Below are positions 24,847 to 52,904 of a DNA stretch of 64,000 nucleotides, one piece after another; the stretch's first letter is position 1; each line of letters opens with the position of its first letter. The position numbers and the translations under genes were made by a program. This DNA is from an uncultured Oscillospiraceae bacterium (GTDB lineage: Bacteria > Bacillota > Clostridia > Oscillospirales > Oscillospiraceae). The notes under the pieces were generated by a model. The model was given only the letters and a program-made list of their open reading frames with translations. It made no database searches and was not told the DNA's origin. Location of the stretch: contig CALWXF010000003.1 of assembly GCA_944385445.1 (NCBI GenBank), forward strand, positions 1-64,000, read 5' to 3'.

Positions 24847-24984
24847 GGCAGCGGGATGCGGTGGGCACACTGCAAGCCTTGAGGGGATCTCCCCTCGTGC
24901 TATTCGTCCGGCGGACAACTCCCCGTCCCGCCGGCACTGTCTCCCCCATCAAGGGAAGCACAACACGTGCGCACCTACTCTGCC
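24847..24984 (-). promoter_or_regulatory. candidate tetrahydrofolate (THF-I) riboswitch aptamer
   Basis: The transcript shows GGCAG-AGUAG at its 5' side (24984-24975) closing with CUGCC (24851-24847), as THF-I uses GGAG-AGUAG and CUCC. Other matched parts are the J element GCAUCCCG near 24855, a P3-like stem CCGGCGG/CCGCCGG whose loop reads GACGGGGAGUUGU (compare AAUGGGAUGUCGU), and the conserved ACGAA right after that stem. GGGA in the loop can pair with UCCC in the J element as the known pseudoknot. Two additional hairpins make it longer than usual. It precedes folC-folT, a classic THF-riboswitch target. Recognition is by eye. Confidence 0.72.
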
Positions 24985-49842: not shown

Positions 49843-51216
49843 TTAGTAACGACCAAAGTCGCCGGCACGGCCCTCGGTGACGTCGGCACCGAAGGTGTAA
49901 TCCTTGCCGGGGAGGATGGCGTTGAGGGCGATGCCCGCAACGGCGGCCACAGCCAGGTTGGTGAGGGTGATGTGTACCTCACCGATGGCGAAGGTAACAC
50001 CATTGGTGAAGCCCAGACCGCACACCAGAATGACGGCGGCGATGATGAGGTTGCGGGAGTTGGTGAAGTCCACCCGGTTCTCCACCACGTTACGCACGCC
50101 GATGGCGGAGATCATACCGTAGAGGATGAAGGACACGCCGCCGATGATGGCGGGGGGGATGGAATTGACCACAGCGGCAAAGGCGGGGCTGAAGGACAGC
50201 ACCACGGCATAGATGGCAGCCAGGCGCACCACACGGGGGTCGTGGACCCGGGAGAGCACCAGCACGCCGGTGTTCTCACCGTAGGTGGTGTTGGCGGGGC
50301 CGCCAAACAGGCCAGACAGCGAAGTGGCGATACCGTCGCCGATGAGGGTACGGTGCAAGCCGGGGTCGGACAGGAAGTTCTTGCCCACAGTGGCGGAGAT
50401 GGCGGACATATCGCCGATGTGCTCCATCATGGCAGCAATGGCGATGGGTGCCATGACGAAGATGGAGGTCAGGTCAAACTTGGCGATGACAAAAGGCTGG
50501 AGACCCACCAGCTGGGAGGATGCCACTCCGGAGTAGTCGATGAGGGGCACCACGTTGCCGGCGGCATCCACGGCGGTGGCACCAAAGGAGTTGGCAATCA
50601 CGGCCACGATGTAGGAGCCCACCACACCCAGGAGAATGGGGATGATCTTAATCATGCCCTTGCCCCAGATGTTGGCCGCCACAATGATGGCCATGGCCAC
50701 AATGGCCAGCCACCAGCAGGTGGAGGCGTTGGACACCGCAGAGGGGGCCAGGTTCAGACCGATGAGGATGATGATGGGTCCGGTGACCACGGGGGGCAGG
50801 AAGCGCATGACCTTCTGCACACCCACCAGCTTGATGATGCCAGCCAGGATCACATACAGCAGGCCAGCCACCACAATACCGCCCAGGGCATACTGGAGCT
50901 TTTCAGCGGCGGCCATGTCGGCGTACTTCCCGGCGGACAGCTCACTCACCGCCTGGAAGCCACCCAGGAAGGCGAAGGAGGAGCCCAGGAAGGCGGGCAC
51001 CTTCAGCTTGGTACACAGGTGGAAAAACAGGGTGCCGATACCGGCAAAAAACAGGGTGGTCTGGATGGACAGGGGCAGACCGTAGGAATTGCTCACCAGC
51101 ATGGGCACCAGCACGGTGGCGCCGAACATGGCGAACATGTGCTGCAAGCCCAGAATGAGCATCTTAGGCCAACCCAAAGTGCGGGCGTCCTGAATGGGCG
51201 CTTGATGGTTGTTCAC
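49843..51216 (-). CDS. uraA: uracil permease (NCS2 family)
   Basis: A 457-residue nucleobase:cation symporter with about 12-14 helices. UraA-type signatures are MFGATVLVPML near 30, LGSSFAFLGGF near 76, PPVVTGPIIILIGLNLAPSA and MMEHIGDMSAISATVGKNFL with the substrate Glu, then GLFGGPANTTYGENTGV. Uracil is the best guess; xanthine/uric acid permeases differ at the GGPANTTYGEN stretch. The start is a GTG with AAGGAGAG upstream. Expression is probably controlled by a leader peptide and terminator before it. Confidence 0.92.
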   Translation of the reverse strand: MNNHQAPIQDARTLGWPKMLILGLQHMFAMFGATVLVPMLVSNSYGLPLSIQTTLFFAGIGTLFFHLCTKLKVPAFLGSSFAFLGGFQAVSELSAGKYADMAAAEKLQYALGGIVVAGLLYVILAGIIKLVGVQKVMRFLPPVVTGPIIILIGLNLAPSAVSNASTCWWLAIVAMAIIVAANIWGKGMIKIIPILLGVVGSYIVAVIANSFGATAVDAAGNVVPLIDYSGVASSQLVGLQPFVIAKFDLTSIFVMAPIAIAAMMEHIGDMSAISATVGKNFLSDPGLHRTLIGDGIATSLSGLFGGPANTTYGENTGVLVLSRVHDPRVVRLAAIYAVVLSFSPAFAAVVNSIPPAIIGGVSFILYGMISAIGVRNVVENRVDFTNSRNLIIAAVILVCGLGFTNGVTFAIGEVHITLTNLAVAAVAGIALNAILPGKDYTFGADVTEGRAGDFGRY

Positions 51217-51249
51217 GTTGTTCTCTCCTTTTCTCTTATGTTCTCACAG

Positions 51250-51284
51250 AAAAAAAGACAATCACCCAAAAAAGGTAATTGTCT
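51250..51284 (-). terminator. attenuator terminator in the uraA leader
   Basis: 11-bp stem (AGACAATTACC with GGGTGATTGTCT, one G-U pair) with a U6 loop, followed by seven T on the minus strand, 34 bp before the uraA start. The end of the leader ORF lies inside the stem. Confidence 0.8.
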
Positions 51285-51342
51285 CATACGAAAAGGGAAC
51301 AGCAGGAAACAAATGAAAAAACTGCATCATCTGCGCCATCAT
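51262..51342 (-). CDS. 26-residue leader peptide of uraA
   Basis: The ATG at 51342 has AAGGAGGGG eight bases upstream. The peptide has six Phe (MMAQMMQFFHLFPAVPFSYE then TITFFG) and its codons are very U-rich. Its stop codon sits in the 3' arm of the attenuator hairpin, so a ribosome near its end would break the terminator. This matches the plan of E. coli pyrBI, where UTP shortage stalls polymerase in a U-rich leader. Function is inferred from layout only. Confidence 0.7.
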   Translation of the reverse strand: MMAQMMQFFHLFPAVPFSYETITFFG

Positions 51343-51373
51343 GCCATTCCCCTCCTTTCTGTCTCGACTTTGT

Positions 51374-51402
51374 ATCATAGCAGATTGGCGGTCAAATGGC
51401 AA
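51374..51402 (-). promoter_or_regulatory. promoter of the uraA leader and uraA
   Basis: Minus strand: TTGCCA (51397-51402), 17-bp spacer, TATGAT (51374-51379). Transcription would start about 25 nt before the leader peptide. Confidence 0.75.
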
Positions 51403-51427: not shown

Positions 51428-51458
51428 TTGACATCACATACTATGTGTGGCATAGTAT
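51428..51458 (+). promoter_or_regulatory. padR promoter with perfect 8-bp inverted repeat
   Basis: TTGACA (51428-51433) precedes ATACTATG-N5-CATAGTAT (51438-51458), a perfect inverted repeat that covers the likely -10 (TAGTAT, 51453-51458; spacer 19). It is a fitting autorepression operator. Confidence 0.7.
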
Positions 51459-51478
51459 TATGTGAAGGGAGGTATTCC

Positions 51479-51799
51479 ATGGACATTCAGTTAAAACGAG
51501 GGCTGCTGGACGTATGCGTGCTGGCGACCATCAAAAACGAGGATTCCTACGGCTATCAGATCATCAAAGATATGAAGCCCTATGTGGAGATCTCCGAGTC
51601 CACCCTGTACCCCATTTTGCGACGCTTGGAAGGGGCACAGTTGCTGACGGTACGAAAAGCCGAGCACAACGGCAGACTGCGCAAGTATTACCACATCACG
51701 CCCCAAGGGCTCCAGCGCCTGGAGGATTTTAAAGCCGAGTGGAACGAGATTGTATCCATCTACAAATTTATTGCTAGAGAGGGAGATGTGCATGAATAA
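51479..51799 (+). CDS. PadR-family transcriptional regulator
   Basis: A 106-residue winged-helix regulator: MDIQLKRGLLDVCVLATIKNEDSYGYQIIKDM, then SESTLYPILRRLEGAQLLTVRK (recognition helix and wing) and a short dimer helix. GGGAGG lies before the ATG at 51479. Its start follows an operator-like inverted repeat. The next gene, DUF1700/DUF4097, overlaps by 8 bp, so the pair works as one unit; such PadR-DUF1700 pairs are common in Firmicutes. Confidence 0.92.
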   Translation: MDIQLKRGLLDVCVLATIKNEDSYGYQIIKDMKPYVEISESTLYPILRRLEGAQLLTVRKAEHNGRLRKYYHITPQGLQRLEDFKAEWNEIVSIYKFIAREGDVHE

Positions 51800-52904
51800 A
51801 AAGGAATTTCTCGCTGCCCTTCGTGCTGGTTTAGCTGGATTGCCGGAGGCAGACGTGCAGCATTGGCTGGACTTTTACTCTGAAATCATTGAAGACCGGA
51901 TGGAAGAGGGCATGACAGAGGCTGAGGCGGTGGCGGATGTGGGCCCGGTGCATGATATCGTAGGGCAAATTCTCTCGGAGACACCCAAACGACCGATGAC
52001 GGGAAGCAATGCAGTGAAACGCTCCAGGAAGCCTGTGATTTTTGGTGTATTGATTGGCGCTTCCGCCGTTGTTCTTCTCGTTGTGTGGGGTATGAATGCT
52101 CTCAAAGCGGACTTTTCTCGCTTCGAGGCCCCCTTCTCTCAAAGCATAGCTTCCCCTGCCCTCACCTCCCCTGTAGATGCCCAGGATTTCCACACGGTGC
52201 GTCAAACCGTGGAAGAATCTTTTACCAGCATCGCCGTAGATGCCGAGGCGTGCAACATCCATCTGGTACCCTCCACGGACGGCACCACTCAGGTGGAGTA
52301 CACCACCGGCGACAAACTGGAGTGCTCGGTCTCCGTGGCGCAGAACATTTTGCGCATCATATTTCGTGATCACCGTTCCTGGACTGACAACATGAACGCT
52401 TCGCCCCTGGAAATTACCCTCTATCTCCCCCAATCCCAGTATGAGCAGCTGAACCTGGATTCCGTCAGTGGGAGCATCACGGTACCTGAGGATTTTTCCT
52501 TTTCCCAGGCCCAGGTAAGTACCACCAGCGGAAAACTGGAATTTTACGCCCCTGTTTCCGGCAATCTGACCCTGGAATCGGTGAGCGGTACTATGGAAGT
52601 GAGCAAAGTATCCCCCCAGTCTCTGTCCCTCTCCAGCACCAGCGGCTCCATCCACGCCTCCCAAGTGGTGGTTATGGAAACCTGGGACATTAACAGCGTC
52701 AGCGGTCAGGTTACGCTCACCGATTGTGACGCATCCTCTCTGGTCATCAATACCATTAGCGCTAGTGTGAAAGCATCCCTGCGCAGTGGAAAGACCTTCT
52801 CCACCCAGACCGTCAGCGGAGACGTAGAGGTCCCCTCGGACAGTTCTGGTGGCCCATGTAACATCTCCACCGTCAGCGGAGACATCACCTGCACCATCCA
52901 GTAA
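51792..52904 (+). CDS. DUF1700 (HAAS-like) + DUF4097 membrane protein
   Basis: A 370-residue protein. The N-terminal DUF1700-like helical domain (1-75: MNKKEFLAALRAGLAGLPEADVQHWLDFYSEIIEDRMEEG) is followed by a helix at about 90-108, and then a right-handed beta-helix-like DUF4097 region (about 170-370). There the motif S/T-x-SG-x-I/V recurs about every 20 residues: SVSGSITV, TTSGKLEF, SVSGTMEV, STSGSIHA, SVSGQVTL, TVSGDVEV, TVSGDITC. The DUF1700 part usually pairs with PadR regulators. Envelope-associated signalling is suspected; no activity is known. Starts at 51792, inside padR. Confidence 0.87.
   Translation: MNKKEFLAALRAGLAGLPEADVQHWLDFYSEIIEDRMEEGMTEAEAVADVGPVHDIVGQILSETPKRPMTGSNAVKRSRKPVIFGVLIGASAVVLLVVWGMNALKADFSRFEAPFSQSIASPALTSPVDAQDFHTVRQTVEESFTSIAVDAEACNIHLVPSTDGTTQVEYTTGDKLECSVSVAQNILRIIFRDHRSWTDNMNASPLEITLYLPQSQYEQLNLDSVSGSITVPEDFSFSQAQVSTTSGKLEFYAPVSGNLTLESVSGTMEVSKVSPQSLSLSSTSGSIHASQVVVMETWDINSVSGQVTLTDCDASSLVINTISASVKASLRSGKTFSTQTVSGDVEVPSDSSGGPCNISTVSGDITCTIQ

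Follow-up and report, generated by a model that had tools for sequence, protein, structure and literature searches.

The window (the whole stretch of 64,000 nucleotides that was analysed) probably contains, in front of the uracil permease gene uraA, a transcription attenuator that is coupled to translation, most likely reports UTP and works like that of the Escherichia coli pyrBI operon. Such an attenuator without PyrR had been proposed in the first-pass annotation, and this proposal gained support from the conservation of the layout in relatives, the drift of the leader peptides with their U-richness kept, the position of the stop codons, and the pattern of PyrR absence. In addition, an element was found that was missing from that annotation, namely a pairing of 14 bp between the leader ribosome-binding site (RBS) and start region (51355-51342) and the U-rich tract (51304-51291), which covaries among relatives. 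Judged from these sequence features, the leader probably stands in for PyrR at uraA and is gated at its own translation initiation, and it would thus probably turn on uracil uptake when UTP is short.

The leader region, on the minus strand, is flanked by a divergent gene for a PadR-type regulator and by the NCS2 permease gene uraA (49843..51216, GTG start at 51216). All parts described in the first-pass annotation were retrieved. A sigma-A type promoter (TTGCCA-17-TATGAT; 51374..51402) matches the consensus in 10 of 12 positions and has an extended TG before the -10 hexamer; from its position, transcription is expected to start near 51367. The strong Shine-Dalgarno sequence AAAGGAGGGG (51349..51358) precedes a leader ORF of 26 codons plus TGA (MMAQMMQFFHLFPAVPFSYETITFFG; 51262..51342), which begins with ATG ATG at 51342 and contains six Phe codons. 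Its stop codon (51264-51262) lies within the 3' arm of an intrinsic terminator hairpin (AGACAATTACC-TTTTTT-GGGTGATTGTCT, 12-13 bp; 51256..51284), followed by the U tail TTTTTTCT (51248..51255). The last 30 nt before the hairpin (51285..51314) form a U-rich tract with a U content of 0.53. From the end of the hairpin, 40 nt separate the terminator from the GTG start of uraA, which has its own Shine-Dalgarno sequence AAGGAG (near 51230-51225). The predicted fold of the leader RNA (-54.5 kcal/mol) was more stable than that of 200 shuffled sequences (-40.8 kcal/mol; z -3.8), none of which was as low. Concerning the target gene, its product matched PF00860 (E 1.8e-85) and, above cut-off, the NCBIfam model TIGR00801 (ncs2); the uracil-permease model was the best of the narrower NCBIfam models, yet it stayed under its own cut-off. 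This was the sole PF00860 gene found in the genome. A survey of 304 kb of this genome (the window and 240 kb of contig C1) showed that 19 of 165 terminators had some RBS-bearing ATG ORF ending at them, and among these cases the uraA leader was an outlier in U content (0.53, the next being 0.33).

Some further elements were seen around this region. A palindrome-like sequence, CACATACTATGTGTGGCATAGTATTATGTG (51435-51464), overlies a -10-like hexamer of the promoter of the divergent PadR gene and is likely, as predicted from its sequence, a PadR operator. The PadR gene is followed by a gene for a HAAS-domain/DUF4097 protein, both (51480-52904) probably forming one operon. Elsewhere in the window, a THF riboswitch aptamer was present on the minus strand (24847-24984; 62.8 bits, above the gathering score).

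The first-pass annotation had suggested looking for the leader in relatives, and the layout turned out to be conserved. Two sets of loci were compared. The family set originated from 250 genomes belonging to the GTDB family of the window, 193 of which had a UraA match, and comprised 89 loci, namely 29 from the search (the window apart) and 60 of the next 61 in E-value order, one at a contig edge being omitted. The named set was drawn from 591 confirmed uraA relatives in named genomes and consisted of the upstream regions of the best 80, among which Pseudoflavonifractor capillosus An386a (locus L009; UraA 96% identical) was nearest to the window. A leader was called when a terminator at most 200 nt from uraA was accompanied by an ATG ORF of 10-45 codons that had an RBS and ended no earlier than 20 nt before the hairpin and no later than the hairpin end; composition was not a criterion. 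The layout was accepted before uraA at 43 of the 89 family loci, representing 21 genera, and at 22 of the 80 named loci, two of which (L030 and L066) were chance-like. Within the family, it was present at 31 of 45 loci with a UraA identity of at least 66% and at 12 of 44 loci with an identity of 51-62%; since the species are related, p-values overstate independence for these and all other family statistics. Of 1346 windows placed at random in the flanks of the named loci, the same settings accepted 17, and a leader-like ORF occurred at 14 of 257 unrelated control terminators in these flanks, called under stricter terminator settings. Relaxed settings raised the count to 47 of 89 family loci, but control terminators were then accepted in 142 of 1364 cases. 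Among the rejected loci, L021, L100, L102 and L127 displayed the same layout by eye, with GTG or TTG starts or other small departures. Variant leaders whose stop codon lies inside a long A/U-rich terminator hairpin were seen in L099, L100 and L102 (of another genus, g23), the latter two with an apparent TTG start. The loci L024, L025, L027-L033 and L035-L063, mostly Lachnospiraceae by title, had no leader under the strict settings, except for the chance-like L030.

From 66 leaders (43 in the family, 22 in the named set and that of the window), 62 were retained for all later counts, after dropping two near-duplicates and, by hand, L030 and L066, whose ORFs are long and lie more than 110 nt from uraA. 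The leader ORFs measured 17-38 codons, and the peptides had no evident shared sequence among relatives. Within the range admitted by the calling settings, the stop codon fell at -3 to 0 of the hairpin in 33 leaders, inside the hairpin in 25, and further upstream in four. In the window, as in L097, the frame closes within the 3' arm (+20), and the stop of L009, L010, L096 and L098 is located at the foot of the hairpin; either position allows a ribosome to reach the hairpin.

The U-richness that had been remarked for the leader of the window is shared by most of these leaders. In the 30 nt that directly precede the hairpin, U averaged 0.488 in the 62 leaders versus 0.254 in the 257 control terminators of the named loci, which are of mixed lineages (p 2e-25, relatedness ignored), while C amounted to 0.241 versus 0.219. 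The excess set in sharply near -33, the earlier part of the same ORFs having a U content of 0.273, and it persisted among 39 mutually dissimilar leaders (0.479 in the tract). A tract U content of at least 0.40 was found in 53 of 62 leaders, the other nine going down to 0.20. This excess is specific to U, not C, and it is no codon effect. In the same tracts, the words GTTTC and TGTTTC were more frequent than in dinucleotide shuffles (23 leaders had GTTTC versus 8.4 expected). This may come from shared ancestry, from a pairing partner or from a pause-prone word, and relatedness can suffice as an explanation.

In the minimum free energy (MFE) fold, the leader RBS pairs with the U-rich tract. The resulting hairpin, P1, consists in the window of 14 pairs between a 5' arm comprising the Shine-Dalgarno core, the spacer and the first base of the AUG (GGAGGGGAAUGGCA; 51342..51355) and a 3' arm inside the tract (UGCUGUUCCCUUUU; 51291..51304), and is indicated by both fold and covariation. 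P1 and the terminator do not overlap, so that both predicted structures can form together. Across the 62 leaders, the RBS region paired better with its own tract (-17.0 kcal/mol) than with swapped tracts (-14.4 kcal/mol), none of 5000 permutations being as low. The same held for the spacer between RBS and start alone (-8.06 versus -6.51; 0/5000), whereas the Shine-Dalgarno core, which is constant across leaders, gave no swap signal (1141/5000). Hence, the signal is due to the freely drifting spacer and not to the constant core. It persisted in GC-binned comparisons and in a subset of 37 dissimilar leaders. Four control pairings were null, namely uraA RBS with uraA coding sequence (1694/5000), leader RBS with the first part of the ORF (4398/5000), uraA RBS with tract (3951/5000), and leader RBS with uraA coding sequence (928/5000). 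Dinucleotide shuffling of the tract gave p <= 0.05 for 24 of 62 leaders (p 0.02 for that of the window) versus two in the uraA control. When the full leader was folded, the mean RBS-tract pairing probability was 0.73 versus 0.53 with interior and tract shuffled, and it exceeded 0.5 in 54 of 62 leaders, compared with 39 whose shuffled mean did so. Together with the swap result, this indicates that composition provides part of the pairing and covariation the remainder. P1 was weak in five leaders (L163, L178, L166, L132 and L116). Its arm sequences drift among leaders, with pairing and U-richness persisting. Given this covariation between the tract and the RBS-start region of the same leader, a hairpin that can hide the RBS sits beside the terminator. 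A similar pairing in E. coli pyrBI (CGGGAGGA/UCUUCCCG) is striking by eye, but it was not above shuffles (p 0.36 for E. coli and p 0.69 for Klebsiella, in an Enterobacterales sample of three records, two of them distinct), so that on present evidence P1 is not a general pyrBI feature. As far as the compared sequences go, the covarying P1 is thus an element new to this leader type.

Control of uraA by PyrR was considered and rejected for the window, as neither a protein over cut-off nor the PyrR RNA element (RF00515) was found. Indeed, the best place in the genome for the PyrR model NF003549 scored 31.4 bits, at hpt, versus a cut-off of 138, in an assembly that is 91% complete, and three uraA-bearing genomes of the same genus (G066, G145 and G202; 99-100% complete) had no PyrR over cut-off either. 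The genome contained eight PF00156 matches, five of which were assigned by NCBIfam as hpt, xpt, pyrE, comF-like and upp; two further ones we take, from reading their ORFs, to be a PRPP-synthase-like and a PurF-like protein. The statement of the first-pass annotation that no PyrR-binding loop is visible agrees with the absence of RF00515 matches from the genome, a search that detected the element in three of 14 control genomes (Bacillus subtilis, Thermus and Lactococcus lactis), in two of them above cut-off. Similarly, RF00515 did not reach its gathering score in any of 20 mostly Lachnospiraceae uraA loci (19 without a leader call, and L030). In the family, PyrR was over cut-off in 40 of 250 genomes. 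Of the 89 loci, 42 had a leader only, one had both (G236), 13 had PyrR only, and 33 had neither by the strict leader settings (Fisher p = 0.0008, relatedness ignored). Among the 14 loci with PyrR in the genome, 12 had the end of the pyrR match no more than 100 nt upstream of uraA, which further supports the assignment of the permease to uracil; in G236 and G062, pyrR was on a different contig from uraA. An identity of the leader as riboswitch or T-box was rejected too, as no known RNA family matched in an Rfam scan at gathering score (best lax match 18.1 bits versus a gathering score of 60). By eye, no such leader was seen at pyrB (two copies), pyrE, upp, carA and pyrG of the same genome. This speaks against the proposed UTP control, as do the 33 loci with neither leader nor PyrR, the nine leaders with a tract U content under 0.40, the five leaders with a weak P1, and the large share of the RBS-tract pairing that composition explains. 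This genome carries two aspartate-carbamoyltransferase-like genes, on contigs C17 and C1, and on C17 a gene for a YgeW-type knotted carbamoyltransferase as well (fragments L091, L093 and L094).

The mechanism that we infer from these elements depends on when the first ribosome loads. In an untranslated leader RNA, P1 would form with the terminator directly behind it, as in the predicted structures, and uraA would not be transcribed. With plentiful UTP, RNA polymerase would cross the tract fast, P1 would close over the leader RBS, and the terminator would form. If the completed tract masks the leader RBS, a ribosome must load with polymerase in or before the tract, so that a low UTP level would favour loading. 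With UTP short, polymerase would dwell in the tract, allowing a ribosome to load and translate the leader. On reaching the stop codon, which lies at the terminator or within it, during formation of the hairpin, this ribosome would cover the 5' arm, resulting in read-through by polymerase and a rise in uracil uptake. Instead of gating initiation, or additionally, P1 could act as a pause hairpin. More tentatively, and with somewhat less than even confidence, it is proposed that the U-rich tract serves both as the site where polymerase reads UTP and as the anti-Shine-Dalgarno sequence of the leader, whereby the UTP level would be gauged by which comes first, completion of the tract by polymerase or loading of the first ribosome, an arrangement that would replace PyrR at uraA in at least 21 genera of one family.

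Several other explanations can be weighed against UTP-reporting attenuation. The six Phe codons, correctly counted in the first-pass annotation, had led to a second reading there, namely a response to Phe-tRNA, by which a ribosome stalling at Phe codons would pick terminator or antiterminator. Phe is indeed the most frequent residue of the leader peptides (12.5%). However, the number of Phe codons varies from 0 to 6 per leader, two of 62 leaders being without Phe and eight having only one, and UUU/UUC triplets occur less often in frame (0.191) than in either of the remaining frames (0.255 and 0.260). Because Phe codons are not enriched in frame, this reading fails; furthermore, the MFE fold has no antiterminator overlapping the terminator and the downstream gene encodes a uracil-type permease, so that it is left with almost no probability. 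Alternatively, the ORF might report general translation capacity, as affected by antibiotics or starvation, with the tract as a NusG-type or sequence-specific pause and not as a UTP gauge. This is what the vmlR leader of B. subtilis brings to mind, which uses a short upstream ORF, polymerase pausing and attenuation, in a species whose NusG pauses at TTNTTT (PMC9226507), a motif that occurs in 38 of 62 tracts. Yet, this frequency is not above that expected from composition (35.9 +/- 3.0 in shuffles) and the position is not fixed, the excess lying in U generally; the motif was therefore rejected as a conserved pause signal. With a pyrimidine transporter encoded downstream and no PyrR found, a sensor of translation capacity is considered unlikely.

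Binding of a trans-acting factor or ligand to the leader, be it a PyrR-like protein, a protein binding the U tract or a riboswitch ligand, would make the ORF secondary, and P1, as a covarying hairpin, offers a possible target. Its arm sequences drift, however, while pairing and U-richness stay, and the RBS, start and stop position are kept (partly required by the way leaders were called); with no PyrR gene over cut-off and lax Rfam matches far below their gathering scores, such a factor is rather improbable. Finally, premature termination could be constitutive or Rho-dependent, the pyrimidine-rich stretch being a Rho target and no signal being read, as B. subtilis Rho terminates pyrimidine-rich transcripts, with T-richness adding to C excess (PMC13323073). 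But the tract covers about 33 nt versus the more than 150 nt of C excess described in that source, every accepted leader has an intrinsic hairpin and U tail (as required for acceptance), and the conserved RBS, ORF and P1 would be left unexplained, which makes this explanation very improbable.

UTP-reporting attenuation fits best with what is described for the E. coli leader pyrL, the template of which mostly requires U (49%) and where a low UTP level causes a polymerase pause, the coupled ribosome then preventing the terminator (PMC10135430). The uraA leader shares with pyrBI the promoter, the strong RBS, the short ORF that reaches the terminator, the U-rich tract before an intrinsic terminator (U in the last 30 nt of pyrBI being 0.40 in E. 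coli and 0.47 in Klebsiella), and a pyrimidine gene downstream. Accordingly, the sequence marks of a pyrBI-type attenuator, namely an RBS-bearing ORF after a promoter, a U-rich tract, a stop codon near the terminator and independence of codon identity, were all found. The two differ in that uraA leaders occur in another phylum and precede a transporter gene instead of aspartate transcarbamylase, have 17-38 instead of 44 codons, and mostly stop at the hairpin foot or inside it, whereas pyrL runs right through its terminator; besides, the RBS-tract pairing that covaries in uraA leaders does not exceed shuffles in E. coli or Klebsiella. The comparison covered the layouts, and their likeness is assumed to reflect convergence.

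With PyrR attenuation, as in Bacillus, Lactococcus and the family genomes having pyrR beside uraA, the uraA leader has its target gene in common. PyrR terminates transcription when uridine nucleotides are plentiful, as is proposed for the uraA leader, although the sensor would here be polymerase and ribosome instead of an RNA-binding protein. Pyrimidine genes of Bacillota are commonly taken to answer to PyrR, and UTP sensing by a race of polymerase and ribosome is textbook knowledge for enterobacteria. A partial literature search, with many subscription papers outside it, revealed no report of a UTP-type leader attenuator in Bacillota. For His and antibiotics, leader-peptide attenuators have been described from this phylum (PMC2965389, PMC4833913, PMC9226507). 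The vmlR leader likewise combines a short upstream ORF, polymerase pausing and an intrinsic terminator, but it senses ribosome-targeting antibiotics via an antiterminator, and the description consulted does not speak of a U-rich stretch for sensing where the ORF ends (PMC9226507). Similarly, the His leader peptides before hisS and hisZ of Bacillota are leader-peptide attenuators with a stretch of His codons (PMC2965389, PMC4833913), while uraA leaders keep no codon identity.

Bacillota have been classed at phylum level as 'runaway', their polymerases outrunning the ribosomes (PMC13323073), so that coupling of transcription and translation is not to be taken for granted. Signs of runaway transcription in the genome under study are mixed. 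The distance from stop codon to terminator, a proxy named in PMC7858274, was short (median 12 nt, 44% at 10 nt or less; 63 of 146 terminators), the median in an E. coli sample being 18 (17 of 46; p = 0.06). The purine content of the genes, a bias in which has been linked to runaway transcription (PMC13323073), was 0.504 versus 0.516 in the E. coli sample by our own simple gene calls, indicating no purine bias. A gate such as P1 would suit a phylum of this class. If the tract indeed has the double purpose proposed, pyrBI-like control would be workable in a phylum whose polymerases supposedly outrun their ribosomes, and the covarying RBS-tract hairpin makes the race between ribosome and runaway polymerase directly testable on a template of about 120 nt. 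If UTP-reporting attenuation holds true, the uraA leader would be a site where transcription-translation coupling must occur, and this conserved leader of Oscillospiraceae-type Clostridia would represent a protein-free replacement of PyrR.
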